The position numbers were made by a program, and so were the translations under genes. A DNA stretch of 64,000 nucleotides, from positions 507,356 through 571,355 of the forward strand of contig NZ_KZ119600.1 of assembly GCF_002153425.1 (NCBI RefSeq), given 5' to 3'. Below, piece after piece: positions 16,647-62,412 of this stretch. The stretch is from Litchfieldia alkalitelluris (GTDB lineage: Bacteria > Bacillota > Bacilli > Bacillales > Salisediminibacteriaceae). Position 1 is the stretch's first letter, and each line of letters starts with the position of its first letter. Under the pieces are notes generated by a model. That model had not been told where the DNA came from. It did no database searches and worked only from the letters and a program-made list of their open reading frames with translations.

Positions 16647-16704
16647 GGACAGTTTTCTAGTTTTAGCAAGTGGAACTGTCCGAGGAAGCTCGTTCCATGG
16701 ACAG
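16647..16704. repeat. Near-solitary 52-bp hairpin module (GGACAG/CTGTCC type)
   Basis: GGACAG at 16647 and again at 16699 are exactly 52 bp apart. The first is followed by a 35-bp module ending in CTGTCC and then a 17-bp spacer, the same geometry as the three large arrays. The rest of 16499-16760 shows no gene. Confidence 0.8.
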
Positions 16705-16829: not shown

Positions 16830-17750
16830 ATGCAAAATGAAGTAATAAAAAATGTACAACCAACAATAAAAGAACACTCCGTTTTGGAGCAAATAAAGTA
16901 CCTAATAAAAGCGCCAGTTCTTATAGCGAATGTCGTTCCTGTCCTAACAGGTTTTTTGCTAGCTTTATTTTTTTCTGGGGCCACTTTTGCAGGTCATTTG
17001 GGCCTCTTACTCCTTACATTAATTGGGAGCACACTTGTGATAGCAGGGGCGTTAGTTATTAATAACTGGTACGATGTTGACATTGATACTGTAATGGGGC
17101 GGACGAAAAAACGACCTACAGTAACAGGAGATATCTCCTTGAAAACTGTGTTGACGATCGGCATCGTTTTATCGGGTGTAGGATTCATCATCATGTTTTT
17201 CACTACACTAGAAGCTACTCTATATTCTTTTATCGGGTGGTTTACGTACGTCTTCCTTTACACCATGTGGTCAAAAAGAAGGTATACGTGGAATACGATT
17301 ATTGGGAGTGTTTCAGGTGCTGTAACACCACTTATCGGTTGGGCAGCATTGGAACCTGCTTTTTCACATATTGTCCCATTAGTATTGTTTATGATCATTT
17401 TCATATGGCAGATGCCTCACACATACTCAATCGCGATGAGAAAGTATGACGAATATAAAGCGGCAGGGGTGAAAATGCTTCCTGTAGTTAAAGGATTTCG
17501 TGTTACAAAAATTCATTTTCTATTTTATGTAATATGTTTATTTCCTCTCCCATTCTTCTTAATGTCACTGGGAATGGTCTTTGTTATAACTGCAACTATT
17601 CTCAATATAGCCTGGCTTATATTATGTATTCAAGGCTTTATGACAAAGAACAACCATCGGTGGGCAACGAATAGCTTTTTCTATTCGGTGAATTACCTTA
17701 TGATACTGTTCGTGTTAATGATTGTGGTGACTTTCCCAATTTTTCAATAA
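16830..17750 (+). CDS. ctaB: Protoheme IX farnesyltransferase (heme O synthase)
   Basis: UbiA-superfamily membrane prenyltransferase that adds farnesyl to heme B to give heme O, the precursor of heme A for terminal oxidases. The 306-residue protein has nine predicted helices. The first aspartate-rich motif is NNWYDVDIDTVMGRTKKRP (about residues 74-92), and the YDEYKAAGVKMLP segment near 203-215 is the second conserved loop. Start ATG 16830 follows GGAGG. It lies 2 kb upstream of the heme-copper oxidase genes, consistent with supplying their cofactor. Confidence 0.93.
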   Translation: MQNEVIKNVQPTIKEHSVLEQIKYLIKAPVLIANVVPVLTGFLLALFFSGATFAGHLGLLLLTLIGSTLVIAGALVINNWYDVDIDTVMGRTKKRPTVTGDISLKTVLTIGIVLSGVGFIIMFFTTLEATLYSFIGWFTYVFLYTMWSKRRYTWNTIIGSVSGAVTPLIGWAALEPAFSHIVPLVLFMIIFIWQMPHTYSIAMRKYDEYKAAGVKMLPVVKGFRVTKIHFLFYVICLFPLPFFLMSLGMVFVITATILNIAWLILCIQGFMTKNNHRWATNSFFYSVNYLMILFVLMIVVTFPIFQ

Positions 17751-17759
17751 GAATCGGGA

Positions 17760-17951
17760 GTGCTGGTGAAGGTAGCTGTAACCGAAGACGTAATGATAGC
17801 TTTCGGGTTCATATTAGCTTTAATGATAGCCGTAACAGTGATTATGGCTGTGCAACTGCTCGGAGTATACGATTATGCGTATACTCCGGGCAGTTTTTTT
17901 TGTGTTTGGGGAAAGAATTTTATATTAGGTGAGTTGCTAGCGACAGATTAA
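17760..17951 (+). CDS. Possible small membrane protein downstream of ctaB (doubtful)
   Basis: A 63-codon frame beginning with GTG 17760 behind CGGGAG, 9 bp after ctaB. Residues 10-35 are strongly hydrophobic (MIAFGFILALMIAVTVIMAV). The frame runs through a strong terminator hairpin and into the repeat array, so a full-length message would be rare. It could be a read-through frame. Confidence 0.25.
   Translation: MLVKVAVTEDVMIAFGFILALMIAVTVIMAVQLLGVYDYAYTPGSFFCVWGKNFILGELLATD
17856..17901 (+). terminator. Terminator after ctaB
   Basis: CTGCTCGGAGTATAC pairs with GTATACTCCGGGCAG, followed by eight T residues. Confidence 0.92.
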
Positions 17952-18890
17952 TTATTTTTGTGGAAAAAACAGTTAATAAGCCGGGCTCATACCGACAGAT
18001 TTGAAGTTAGAAAACGGAAAACTGTCGATAAGAGTAAGGGTTACCGACAGATTTGATGCTAGAAAAAGCAAAACTGTCGATAAGAGCAAGGGTTACCGAC
18101 AGATTTGAAGTTAGAAAACGGAAAACTGTCGATAAGAACAAGGAATACCGACAGATTTGAAGTTTTGAGAAGGGAAACTGTCGATAAGGTGGGTTCATAC
18201 CGACAGATTTGAAGTTAGAAAACGCAAAACTGTCGATAAGGAGGGTTCATACCGACAGATTTGATGCTAGAAAAAGCAAAACTGTCGATAAGAACAAGGA
18301 ATACCGGCAGATTTGAAGTTTTGAGAAGGGAAACTGTCGATAAGGAGGGTTCATACCGACAGATTTGAAGTTAGAAAACGGAAAACTGTCGATAAGAGCA
18401 AGGAATACCGACAGATTTGATGTAAGAAAAAGCAAAACTGTCGATAAGAGCAAAGGTTACCGACAGATTTGAAGCTCAGGAACGCAAAACTGTCGAAAAG
18501 AGCAAGGGTTACCGACAGATTTGAAGTAAGAAAACGGAAAACTGTCGAAAAGAGCAAGGGTTACCGACAGATTTGAAGTTAGAAAACGGAAAACTGTCGA
18601 TAAGAACAAGGAATACCGACAGATTTGATGTAAGAAAACGCAAAACTGTCGAAAAGAGCAAGGGTTACCGACAGATTTGAAGTTAGAAAACGGAAAACTG
18701 TCGATAAGAACAAGGAATACCGACAGATTTGATGTTAGAAAACGGAAAACTGTCGATAAGGCGGGTTCATAACAACAGATTGGAAGCTTGGCGGGTTCAT
18801 ACCGGCAGATTTCAGATTTTACCACTGGAATCTGTCAATAAACCAAGACACATACCCGACAGTATCCAACTTTAGCAAAGAAAACTGTCT
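17941..18890. repeat. 52-bp tandem hairpin array 2 (CGACAG/CTGTCG type)
   Basis: CGACAG starts at 17941 and then every 52 bp from 17993 to 18721 (CGGCAG once, at 18305), with decayed copies at 18773, 18803 and 18857. A full module is CGACAG, 23 bases such as ATTTGAAGTTAGAAAACGGA..., CTGTCG (35 bp), then a 17-bp spacer like ATAAGAGCAAGGGTTAC. An A-A mismatch and three further T-A pairs extend the stem. About 15 central modules are very similar; units at both edges are degenerate. The minus strand is largely open in several frames, which I regard as a by-product. Confidence 0.97.
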
Positions 18891-18904
18891 TTTTGAATTT
18901 ACCT

Positions 18905-19011
18905 CTAATCCAATTCCCTCTCACCTTTCCCACCCACATCAGAATCCACATTCCCGCCCACTAAACCCCCACCCCCACCCCATCAACCCCACACCCCCAC
19001 CTTTTCACGTT
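18905..19011. other. C-rich low-complexity tract before the oxidase genes
   Basis: About 100 bp rich in CCC, CCAC and CCCACCCC, with almost no G on this strand. It directly follows array 2 and precedes the oxidase promoter region. No gene seen. Confidence 0.6.
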
Positions 19012-19310: not shown

Positions 19311-19778
19311 ATGAAAATGCATTTAGATGAAAAGATTTGGCTTATTTTAAGCTTTGGATTAATAATGGGATTCATGTTTTTCACAGGATATCAGACGTTT
19401 GTATTAGGGATGGGGCCGCCGAGTCACATGGAAACGATTGATCCACAGAACGTCGATAATATTGCACCATTTGATGAGCCTGGTGTTTATCAGGTTGGGG
19501 AGAATGAGTATGAAGTTGTGATGACGCTTGAGATATTCAGCTTCAATCCAGGGAATATTGAGATTCCGGCTGGGGCGACAGTTACGTTTATCATGACGTC
19601 GAAGGACGTTGTGCACGGCTTCCAAGTTGCAGATACGAACTTAAATGCAATGGTTATGCCAGGGCATATTCAAAAAATCACGCAGACATTCCATGAGCCA
19701 GGAGAGTATTTAGTTCTTTGTAATGAATACTGCGGTACTGGGCATCAACATATGGCAACAACGATTACGGTGAAATAA
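19311..19778 (+). CDS. cbaB: Heme-copper oxidase subunit II with CuA site (ba3/B-family)
   Basis: 155 residues: one N-terminal membrane helix (about 9-32) and an extracytoplasmic cupredoxin domain. The CuA ligands are complete: H102 in VVHGF, C137 and C141 in CNEYCGTGH, H145 and M148. This subunit accepts electrons from cytochrome c. Start ATG 19311 follows GAGGAGGGG. It lies between the subunit IIa and subunit I genes, forming one operon. Confidence 0.93.
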   Translation: MKMHLDEKIWLILSFGLIMGFMFFTGYQTFVLGMGPPSHMETIDPQNVDNIAPFDEPGVYQVGENEYEVVMTLEIFSFNPGNIEIPAGATVTFIMTSKDVVHGFQVADTNLNAMVMPGHIQKITQTFHEPGEYLVLCNEYCGTGHQHMATTITVK

Positions 19779-26329: not shown

Positions 26330-26445
26330 GAGAAACGGTGCTGATGCACTAGTAGGTAGGCTTATGTGTTTATTGAAAATAAAAACACAATCTGATATAT
26401 TCATTTATAATTCAATACAATAGTAATCAATGAAGTGACCAAGTA

Positions 26446-26650
26446 AATAAGAACTGTGGGACAGAAAATATAGTATATGCTGAGAGCTATATCACCTCTT
26501 CTTATTGAAAACCTACCACGGAGATGTTAGTTAAAAACTAACCGAGTAGTTTCGTTACCAACGTTTAGAGGACTTAATATTTATTATTAATGTCGAACTA
26601 AGGTGGTACCACGTCTAGCATAAAGACGTCCTTTTGGGGGCTCTTTATGT
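26446..26650 (+). promoter_or_regulatory. T-box leader (tRNA-Pro sensing) of proS
   Basis: The hallmark T-box sequence AAGGTGGTACCACG lies at 26600-26613 and is followed by the terminator hairpin ACGTCT-AGACGT-CCTTTT (26611-26635). Stem I appears to be bounded by AATAAGAA (26446) and TTCTTATT (26498); a CCT triplet at 26512-26514 just after it is a possible proline specifier codon. Uncharged tRNA-Pro would favour the antiterminator. The leader is separated from proS by a 370-bp inserted element. Confidence 0.85.
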
Positions 26651-26660
26651 TTTTTTATTT

Positions 26661-27030
26661 AGCTCTGTTAAACTTAGATGTTGATTTTTTGTTACAGGTA
26701 CTCGCTTTTACCACAGGCACAAGTGCGACATCTGCTCAACTTTCGCAGTGTCTTCTTTGCCGCGGGCGGCTGGTAAGCCTCCTCCAAATTCCGCCTAAGA
26801 ACTTGCCCACGTCCTGTGGGCAACGGCGTAATGTCGGCGTCCTGCCTCCTGCATCTGCGGGGTCTTACCCCTGCCTTTAATCCCGCAGGAACGAGCGTTT
26901 ACATCACGAGTAAGCTTCGAGTTGTCTCGACGGATATACTACAGAGCATTTGCTTGTAGAGGAAGAGACAGTCATACCTTCCACAAAAAATCAAAAGTTT
27001 TAAATATCAACATTATCCTTTAACAGAGCT
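26661..27030. mobile_element. 370-bp MITE-like element inserted between T-box and proS
   Basis: Terminal inverted repeats AGCTCTGTTAAA (26661-26672) and TTTAACAGAGCT (27019-27030) are exact, with ATGTTGAT/ATCAACAT extending them. The 8-bp direct repeat TTTTATTT flanks both sides (26653-26660 and 27031-27038), the mark of a target duplication, although the site is AT-rich. Inside it carries GC-rich repeat copy 3 (26757-26892) and the CTCGTGATGTAAA/CTGTCTCTTCC segment shared with 14736-14940. No gene. Confidence 0.75.
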
Positions 27031-58518: not shown

Positions 58519-58601
58519 GTATGGAAAACTGTTAGCTTAACTGGTGATAACACAGATTTTTGTTTTATCCACTGGAAAGGGTCAAAAAGGTGAGGTAATA
58601 C

Positions 58602-58900
58602 TGACAGATTTGAGAATTTTCCACTGGAAACTGTCGATTAAAGAAGCTGATACCGACAGATTTGAGAATTTTCCACTGGAAACTGTCGATTAAAGAAGGT
58701 AATACCGACAGATTTGAGAATATTCAATTGGAAACTGTCGATTAAAGAAGGTGATACCGACAGATTTAAGATTTTTCCACTGGAAACTATCAATTAAAGA
58801 AGATAATAAAGACAGATTTCCGTTTTCTCCACAGAAACCTGTCAATAAGCCATGGCAATAACCACAGAATTATTTTTTCCAATAAAAACAGTCCAGTAAT
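58602..58900. repeat. 52-bp tandem hairpin array 3 (CGACAG/CTGTCG type, diverged)
   Basis: CGACAG (or TGACAG, AGACAG) at 58602, 58654, 58706, 58758 and 58810, exactly 52 bp apart, with a degenerate CCACAG at 58862. Module: CGACAG, 23 bases such as ATTTGAGAATTTTCCACTGG, CTGTCG, and spacer ATTAAAGAAGGTGATAC. Interior and spacer sequences differ from array 2 while geometry is the same. The edges are decayed. From 58901 to 59045 there is AC-rich, repetitive-looking sequence with no gene. Confidence 0.93.
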
Positions 58901-59045
58901 AACCCCGCAAGACTCAAAAATACAGCGCAACACACAATTACCAGCGTTGCATTCAAAAAGACCTCGCAGCACTCAAAAAAACCGCGCAACACACCAAAAA
59001 CAGAAAAACACTCCAAAAACCCGCGCTCTCAAAAGACTCAGTCAG

Positions 59046-61459: not shown

Positions 61460-62412
61460 TCCTCCACAGCTCCAGCTTCAACAGGGACAATAATTTTTTC
61501 CAAAATGCCTTGTAAGACATCTGCCTTTGTATACCTTAGTGAGCTGTCGATGCTTAAAACGAGTCGATGGCACAGAACAAAAGGTGCTAACATCTGCACA
61601 TCTTTTGGTGTGATATAGTTACGGCCATGTAGATAAGCCCTCGCCTGTAAGCTACGCATAAAAGCAATGGTTCCCCTAGGACTGACACCGACTTCAACCT
61701 CTTTCGATTCCCTAGTAGCACGGATGATAGATAACACATAGTTCTGGACTGGATCTGACATGTTTACATGGCGAATCTCATGTTGCATCTCTAGCATTTC
61801 ATCGATTGTTAGTATTGGTGTGATGGACTCAAAAGGTTGCTCTTCCTTGTACATATTCATCATGAGATGCTCTTGCTCGTATGTCGGATATCCTACCTTA
61901 ATCTGCATCATGAACCGATCCATTTGTGCTTCAGGCAACGAGAAAGTACCTTGTTGAGATTCTACTGGATTCTGTGTGGCGATGACGATAAACGGCTTCG
62001 GTAGTGGCAAGGTTTGTCCATCAATGGTCACTTGTCCTTCCTCCATGACTTCCAATAAGCTTGATTGGGTTCGTGGTGTGGCCCTGTTGATTTCATCTGC
62101 GAGGAGTATGTTAGTCATCACTGGACCAGGACGCATTTCGAAAACTTTATCCTTTGGATTGTAAAACTGGATTCCAGTTACATCACTTGGTAGGACATCA
62201 GGTGTAAACTGGATTCTACGGAAGTCGAGGGAAATGGACTTCGCGAGCGTTTTAGCCAACATAGTTTTTCCCGTACCAGGAACATCCTCAAGGAGTATAT
62301 TTCCTTTACTAATCATAGCTATCATGACAAGTTCTACAATCTCCTCTTTCCCAACTAACACTTTTCCAATGGATTCTTTCAGCTTCAAAAGCTTTTCTTG
62401 TTGTTTCGGCAA
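61456..62412 (-). CDS. MoxR-family AAA+ ATPase (YeaC-like)
   Basis: 318 residues. Walker A EDVPGTGKT, Walker B ILLADEINR, then the ATQNP sensor motif; C-terminal lid with SPRGTIAFMRSLQARA. The frame runs on to 62598, but a good ribosome site GGGGTGGG precedes TTG 62412 and a TATAAT box lies at 62446-62451, between the two, so translation from TTG 62412 is more likely and gives the usual family length. Confidence 0.9.
   Translation of the reverse strand: MPKQQEKLLKLKESIGKVLVGKEEIVELVMIAMISKGNILLEDVPGTGKTMLAKTLAKSISLDFRRIQFTPDVLPSDVTGIQFYNPKDKVFEMRPGPVMTNILLADEINRATPRTQSSLLEVMEEGQVTIDGQTLPLPKPFIVIATQNPVESQQGTFSLPEAQMDRFMMQIKVGYPTYEQEHLMMNMYKEEQPFESITPILTIDEMLEMQHEIRHVNMSDPVQNYVLSIIRATRESKEVEVGVSPRGTIAFMRSLQARAYLHGRNYITPKDVQMLAPFVLCHRLVLSIDSSLRYTKADVLQGILEKIIVPVEAGAVEE

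Follow-up and report, generated by a model that had tools for sequence, protein, structure and literature searches.

Tandem repeats of constant size and variable sequence, 51-53 nt in length, were catalogued in Bacillus by Subirana and Messeguer (IJMS 2021, PMC8161180), who left their function open. These repeats occur in Bacillus and other Firmicutes, are non-coding and form several sequence families per genome (PMC8161180). In two reports (PMC8161180; PMC8625621), the class comes in two sizes, 20-21 and 51-53 nt, its taxonomy is patchy and its conservation between strains partial, a polymerising protein or RNA is suggested for it, and transcription of the arrays is reported for B. coagulans. 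CRISPR arrays, which likewise have a regular period and a partly palindromic repeat, were compared with the class and rejected (PMC8161180); unlike in CRISPR, arms and interior both repeat within the arrays studied here and there are no unique spacers.

The arrays found in a 64,000-nt stretch of the Litchfieldia alkalitelluris genome (hereafter the window) belong securely to this published group of intergenic Bacillales satellites, whose length is constant at 51-53 bp. They share its constant length (52 bp in all window arrays, 51 or 52 bp in an 864-kb sample of the genome), the presence of several sequence families of the same length in one genome, the occurrence of a short sequence and its reverse in one repeat (here the GACA/TGTC arms) and a patchy distribution in Firmicutes, the strict pattern having 12 carriers among 60 relatives and 8 among 398 genomes of the taxonomic class, with L. 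alkalitelluris counted in both. Family 8_52_18 of B. coagulans and others in Table 1 of the 2021 paper also carry TGTC...GACA arms (PMC8161180). The three window arrays, with 13, 15 and 5 units, pass the threshold of at least four repeats applied there, which a near-solitary copy at 16648 would fail. The first-pass annotation of this DNA knew of no described family with this form, but the class is in print together with the idea of a polymerising protein (PMC8161180). The GACA-N25-TGTC-N19 grammar across genera, the stem covariation, the placement beside terminators and the polarity relative to replication go beyond the text of PMC8161180, in which palindrome, hairpin, terminator, leading strand and replichore do not appear; this concerns the 2021 paper and not the 2020 J Bacteriol one.

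Arrays in the window

A total of 33 exact GACA-N25-TGTC matches were found in the window, against a mean of 0.54 and a maximum of 3 in 100 Markov-1 simulations, which confirms the earlier observation of a 52-bp module repeated in four places. The features are listed below by window coordinates.

903-1593, + strand: array 1, 13 exact units at 931-1587 (unit starts 931 to 1555, step 52); arms GCGGACA/TGTCCGC; the purine-rich strand is the + strand
16648-16703, + strand: near-solitary copy, a single exact unit with another GACA after it at +52
16830-17750, + strand: UbiA-family prenyltransferase gene (Pfam PF01040), upstream of array 2, used as the anchor for cross-species comparison
17857-17892, + strand: intrinsic terminator of the UbiA-family gene, a 15-bp stem and then a T-run (score 22.5), between this gene and array 2
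17941-18890, + strand: array 2, 15 units at 17994-18754, of which 14 are exact, between decayed edge units; arms CGACAG/CTGTCG
19311-19778, + strand: COX2-domain gene (Pfam PF00116), downstream of array 2
58593-58872, + strand: array 3, 5 units (4 exact) in a gap between convergent genes, found by TRF and the exact-unit search

TRF reported 13.3 copies for array 1, with 84% matches and 0% indels, and 15.3 copies for array 2 (17989-18786), where it also detected a 156-bp higher-order repeat. The exact units of array 2 start at 17994 to 18722 with a step of 52, with one 7-of-8 match at 18306 and another at 18804; the units of array 3 start at 58603 to 58811 with the same step, the one at 58759 being a 7-of-8 match. 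The C or G that had been described as flanking the arms breaks down at the edges of array 3 (TGACA, AGACA). One exact match at 61516, inside an ORF, is probably due to chance.

Other elements were seen near the arrays. A fragment or gene of an rve (integrase-core) transposase lies at 29-622, a little before array 1, and low-complexity C- and A-rich DNA immediately follows array 2 (18900-19010) and array 3 (58949-59026). At 845-1614, array 1 reads on the minus strand as three ORFs of 242-251 aa, one in each frame, which overlap; they are a by-product of the stop-free repeat, and an annotator may call false genes there. A T-box leader was observed at 26421-26636, followed by a Bacillaceae-1 RNA match at 26779-26848 (Rfam). 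At the gathering score, Rfam gave two matches in the window and none in the arrays.

Period, spread and pairing of the units

The pattern GACA-N25-TGTC-N19-GACA has 502 forward and 498 reverse exact matches in the L. alkalitelluris genome, against 0 and 1 for the pattern read backward. As both strands count the same arrays, the genome holds about 500 units. Within the 864-kb sample (355 bases missing), GACA-Nk-TGTC gave 150 matches at k=25, where the median for k=0-129 was 7; TGTC-Nk-GACA gave 140 at k=19. After merging, TRF arrays with a period of 51 or 52 numbered 43 in this sample, covering 28.8 kb (3.3%). Only some of the 43 carry GACA/TGTC; other arms include CGGGCACTA/TAGTGCCCG, TGCGGACT and TCTCATACC. 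The same-genus genomes G002-G004 have no GACA match, yet they contain 51/52-bp arrays with other arms. The GACA/TGTC arms, presented in the first-pass annotation as kept along with the geometry, do recur at many loci and in many genera, but they are only one of several arm motifs at the same period. Two near-perfect 128-bp tandem arrays (C1:213337-214661 and C1:808996-809780, 97% and 99% identity) were also seen in this genome; their period is no whole-turn multiple.

Among arrays of at least four copies in DNA not selected by motif, period 52 was represented by 40 rows and period 51 by 11, followed by period 21 with 8; one of the 51 rows at 52/51 is a duplicate, and a few loci had been chosen for a neighbouring gene. 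It should be noted that TRF counts can test the period, whereas our table of chained-array spacings, forced within 2 bp of multiples of 52, cannot. A scan of named genomes returned at least 115 loci with the pattern, and 108 of the 115 listed were Bacillales by record title. The GACA-N25-TGTC-N19 grammar, with its period of 52, is common to many Bacillales genera, while being patchy within a genus (279 matches in G001, 25-32 in four species and none in three). The fixed geometry despite changing sequence that had been proposed holds in L. alkalitelluris and its relatives: the geometry is present at other loci, and the period does not range freely between 45 and 60 bp. A viral collection yielded nine stretches with one 84-bp match apiece and no long arrays among the matches listed, and viral carriage of the arrays was rejected.

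Four loci with non-Bacillales titles (L141, L135, L148 and L162) were dropped before the period, stem-anticorrelation, polarity and consensus-motif counts, and L141 alone before the relatives' wobble count. Arrays of fewer than three units were left out of the covariation, relatives' wobble, stem-anticorrelation, period and consensus-motif counts, and those of fewer than two units out of the polarity counts.

Because the arms of a tandem array can pair with the neighbour on either side, two hairpins are always possible. Covariation was analysed with one consensus per array for 104 arrays of at least three units; the invariance of GACA and TGTC is imposed by the search pattern and carries no information in this set. 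Inner pairs 1 to 6 of TGTC-N19-GACA were Watson-Crick in 79, 72, 84, 85, 75 and 56 of the 104 arrays, against 47, 32, 36, 36, 38 and 30 after column shuffling, and pair 7 was at chance level (29 against 34). The pairs of GACA-N25-TGTC showed weak covariation across the same consensus units, which come from many species. The GACA-N25-TGTC hairpin first proposed is therefore one of two possible pairings, but the covariation is far stronger for the other. The two alternative stems were anticorrelated (Spearman -0.40, P 2e-5), with a weak cross-table (Fisher 0.07). Column counts over the 104 arrays did not bear out GAAG at interior positions 6-9 as a general feature. Pieces of 140 nt from the three window arrays, on both strands, folded better than shuffled sequences (z from -3.0 to -6.4 as DNA and from -2.4 to -6.5 as RNA). 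Covariation and folding together suggest that the inverted-repeat arm pair of each unit can form a hairpin with a short stem.

The period has also been read in terms of duplex DNA, as a lattice in which a polymerising or nucleoid protein would make one contact per five turns, with all units facing one side. Subirana and Messeguer put this forward (PMC8161180), and the period of 51/52 across unrelated arms, with 20-21 as the next class, is consistent with it, both sizes being near whole turns. The five helical turns assigned to 52 bp in the first-pass annotation do fit, as do two turns for 21 bp, but the period alone is no proof of helical phasing. Moreover, unrelated arm motifs in one genome would require several proteins or a sequence-blind one, covariation of a variable stem is not expected from one fixed binding site, and there is neither a candidate protein nor an extra length constraint inside the arrays. 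Indeed, the number of mismatches for each indel event was 50.8 over 163 arrays with periods of 51-53 and 41.7 over 7 arrays of period at least 60, which shows no difference; rare indels were thus rejected as proof of length selection. We consider a duplex lattice rather unlikely.

Orientation relative to replication

Mapping the arrays relative to the origin, as had been suggested, revealed that their orientation mostly follows the direction of replication in L. alkalitelluris and in the complete genome G311. In the former, where dnaA is at 4.768 Mb, all 55 forward matches of an oriented repeat form lie at 0.105-0.790 Mb, and 77 of the 83 reverse matches were located, all at 3.689-4.457 Mb (six were not located). 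The purine-rich strand is the leading strand in 26 of 32 arrays; this holds for 12/12 arrays of the GACAAA subfamily and 14/20 of the GACAG subfamily, in which six break the rule. Among the matches listed in a thinned map, the GACA arrays of L. alkalitelluris seem concentrated less than about 1.1 Mb from dnaA, and those of G311 do not.

The purine-rich strand of G311 is leading in 17 of 18 array clusters, with one tie. It is the + strand from dnaA (4.461 Mb) to 2.109 Mb and the - strand from 2.150 Mb to 4.290 Mb, so that it changes at dnaA and again in the interval 2.109-2.150 Mb; the computed antipode is at 2.111 Mb when the genome length is rounded to 4.7 Mb. Four further oriented matches agree with the leading-strand rule, as do 55 of 67 arrays of relatives judged by local GC skew. 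One contig of the draft genome G432 carries both orientations.

The purine sign alone failed its control as proof of polarity, since arrays (68/83) did not differ from ordinary control gaps (89/119; Fisher 0.30), and size-matched windows of 44 bp, a fair size for a repeated unit, were used instead. In relatives, the purine-rich side matched the local GC-skew strand in 77% of 92 arrays, compared with 54% of 845 size-matched windows from array-free gaps; none of 20,000 resamples was as high, and the mean purine excess was 0.088 against 0.021. On the right arm of L. alkalitelluris, the value was 82% of 38 arrays against 57% of size-matched windows (P about 0.001). Because ordinary gaps share the purine sign, the arrays are distinguished only by the size-matched comparison, by how strong their bias is and by the arm-to-arm flip of related sequences. 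Leading strand and gene sense largely coincide, and 19 of 25 codirectional arrays of this genome agree with gene sense as well. In the few cases where gene sense and fork conflict, L130, L181 and 4345320/4345498 follow the fork and 839633 follows the genes.

The arrays are therefore likely polar. Statistically, the purine-rich strand is preferentially the leading one, that is, the parental lagging-strand template, which is transiently single-stranded at the fork. The first-pass annotation had favoured a polymerising protein or a topological or replication site, both of which stay putative, but the polarity does point to replication.

Chi, KOPS and the SpoIIIE recognition sequence are, like the arrays, biased to the leading strand and flip at ori and ter. 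Sites of this type were not supported as the common content of the arrays, as most units share no short motif: GAGAAGGG was found in 3/38 arrays of L. alkalitelluris and 0/109 consensus units, and AGCGG in 15/109 consensus units on the leading strand and 3 on the other.

Genomic placement and possible origin

The 43 arrays of the 864-kb L. alkalitelluris sample occupy 26 codirectional, 14 convergent and 3 divergent gaps, the background numbers being 311, 89 and 97. These classes come from a simple ORF caller, and ORFs overlapping arrays were removed before all gene calls; no array (0/43) lay inside another ORF, a count to be read with that prior removal in mind, and the period of 52 is no multiple of 3. 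Of 40 gene-3' sides facing an array, 25 have an intrinsic terminator between the end of the gene and the array; the corresponding figure for array-free gaps is 40 of 126. At C1:698662, 833727 and 840836, terminators next to an array have stems similar to that array's own arms, a possible clue to the way arrays begin.

Array positions differed between species. The gap downstream of the UbiA orthologue contains a 52-bp array of unrelated sequence in G004, 101-bp arrays in G003 and G002, and no array in G006, G007 and G008. Of 42 gaps comparable between L. alkalitelluris and G004, one had an array in both and two had an array in G004 only; the gaps available in G002 (12) and G008 (3) are too few for this comparison. 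No such array was found in 215.8 kb of the same-genus G008. Clustering of 777 neighbouring proteins revealed no gene family linked to the arrays, the largest recurring one, which by eye looks like an ABC ATPase, being present at 8 loci.

REP/BIME elements with RAYT are likewise extragenic, hairpin-forming, clustered and numerous in a genome, and Y1 transposases prefer the lagging strand. RAYT was not supported as the partner, as none of 20 RAYT loci had a 51/52-bp array adjoining the gene. Y1_Tnp was found in 47/60 genomes, many of them without GACA arrays, although arrays of other motifs may be present there. Three of the 20 RAYT loci adjoin arrays of other periods (77-91 bp): at L241:4148-5651, L249:4163-4807 and L247:4114-4518, arrays with periods of 91, 89 and 77 bp are found within about 80-210 bp of RAYT-like genes and represent a second array type, linked to RAYT, in these genomes.

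Transcription of the arrays, with hairpins working as an sRNA, a sponge or a 3' structure, is an unlikely explanation. The stem pairs broken on the gene-sense strand of codirectional L. alkalitelluris arrays had become G.T in 88 cases and A.C in 55 (73 and 33 without the mis-phased array 377288; 24 and 14 in relatives), as would suit RNA, and transcription is reported for B. coagulans (PMC8161180; PMC8625621). The G.T excess may nevertheless be mutational, and the arrays of relatives in convergent gaps lean the opposite way (11 and 23 on the + strand, strand not assigned). The terminators that precede arrays, the frequency of convergent gaps and the lack of an Rfam family match also argue against RNA. 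A neutral or selfish satellite is improbable. In this reading, hairpin DNA duplicated in tandem by chance would grow through slippage and unequal exchange and be tolerated where harmless, and the polarity would be strand-biased mutation copied along with the unit. It would suit the rapid turnover (an orthologous gap with unrelated arrays, none in the G008 sequence), the scarcity of arrays in promoter-bearing divergent gaps (3/43 against 97/497) and the purine bias of ordinary gaps, but by itself it accounts neither for a 51/52 period common to unrelated sequences and many genera nor for related sequences reversed between the two arms.

We favour a link to the lagging-strand template, where the units may spread or act as single-stranded hairpins, although we would put this at somewhat below an even chance. 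Units with purine-rich linkers would spread, expand or act on this template through a putative host machinery; insertion behind terminators, in untranscribed gaps, would lower the cost, and the arrays would turn over fast. The spacing of 52 bp could be the length that the machinery measures or the need of a bound protein (five turns), which is a guess. The complete version of this model is doubtful: a replication-coupled satellite whose 52-nt hairpin units the machinery would copy or expand on the lagging-strand template, five turns setting their length. On both arms, each family's arrays would then run in the origin-to-terminus direction and serve as polar landmarks or as structures in single-stranded DNA. 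Several observations weigh against a lagging-strand model, namely the exceptions in the GACAG subfamily and on the G432 contig, the purine sign of ordinary gaps, the overlap of leading strand and gene sense, the wobble counts favouring the gene-sense strand as RNA, the reported B. coagulans transcription, indels that are no rarer than at other periods, and the lack of a machinery, with no gene family beside the arrays at more than 8 loci.

Published since 2020-2021, the class had no explanation for its constant length. Polarity separates fork models from transcript or duplex-DNA models and is countable in any complete genome, and the GACA/TGTC grammar common to genera provides a defined sequence for pull-downs.
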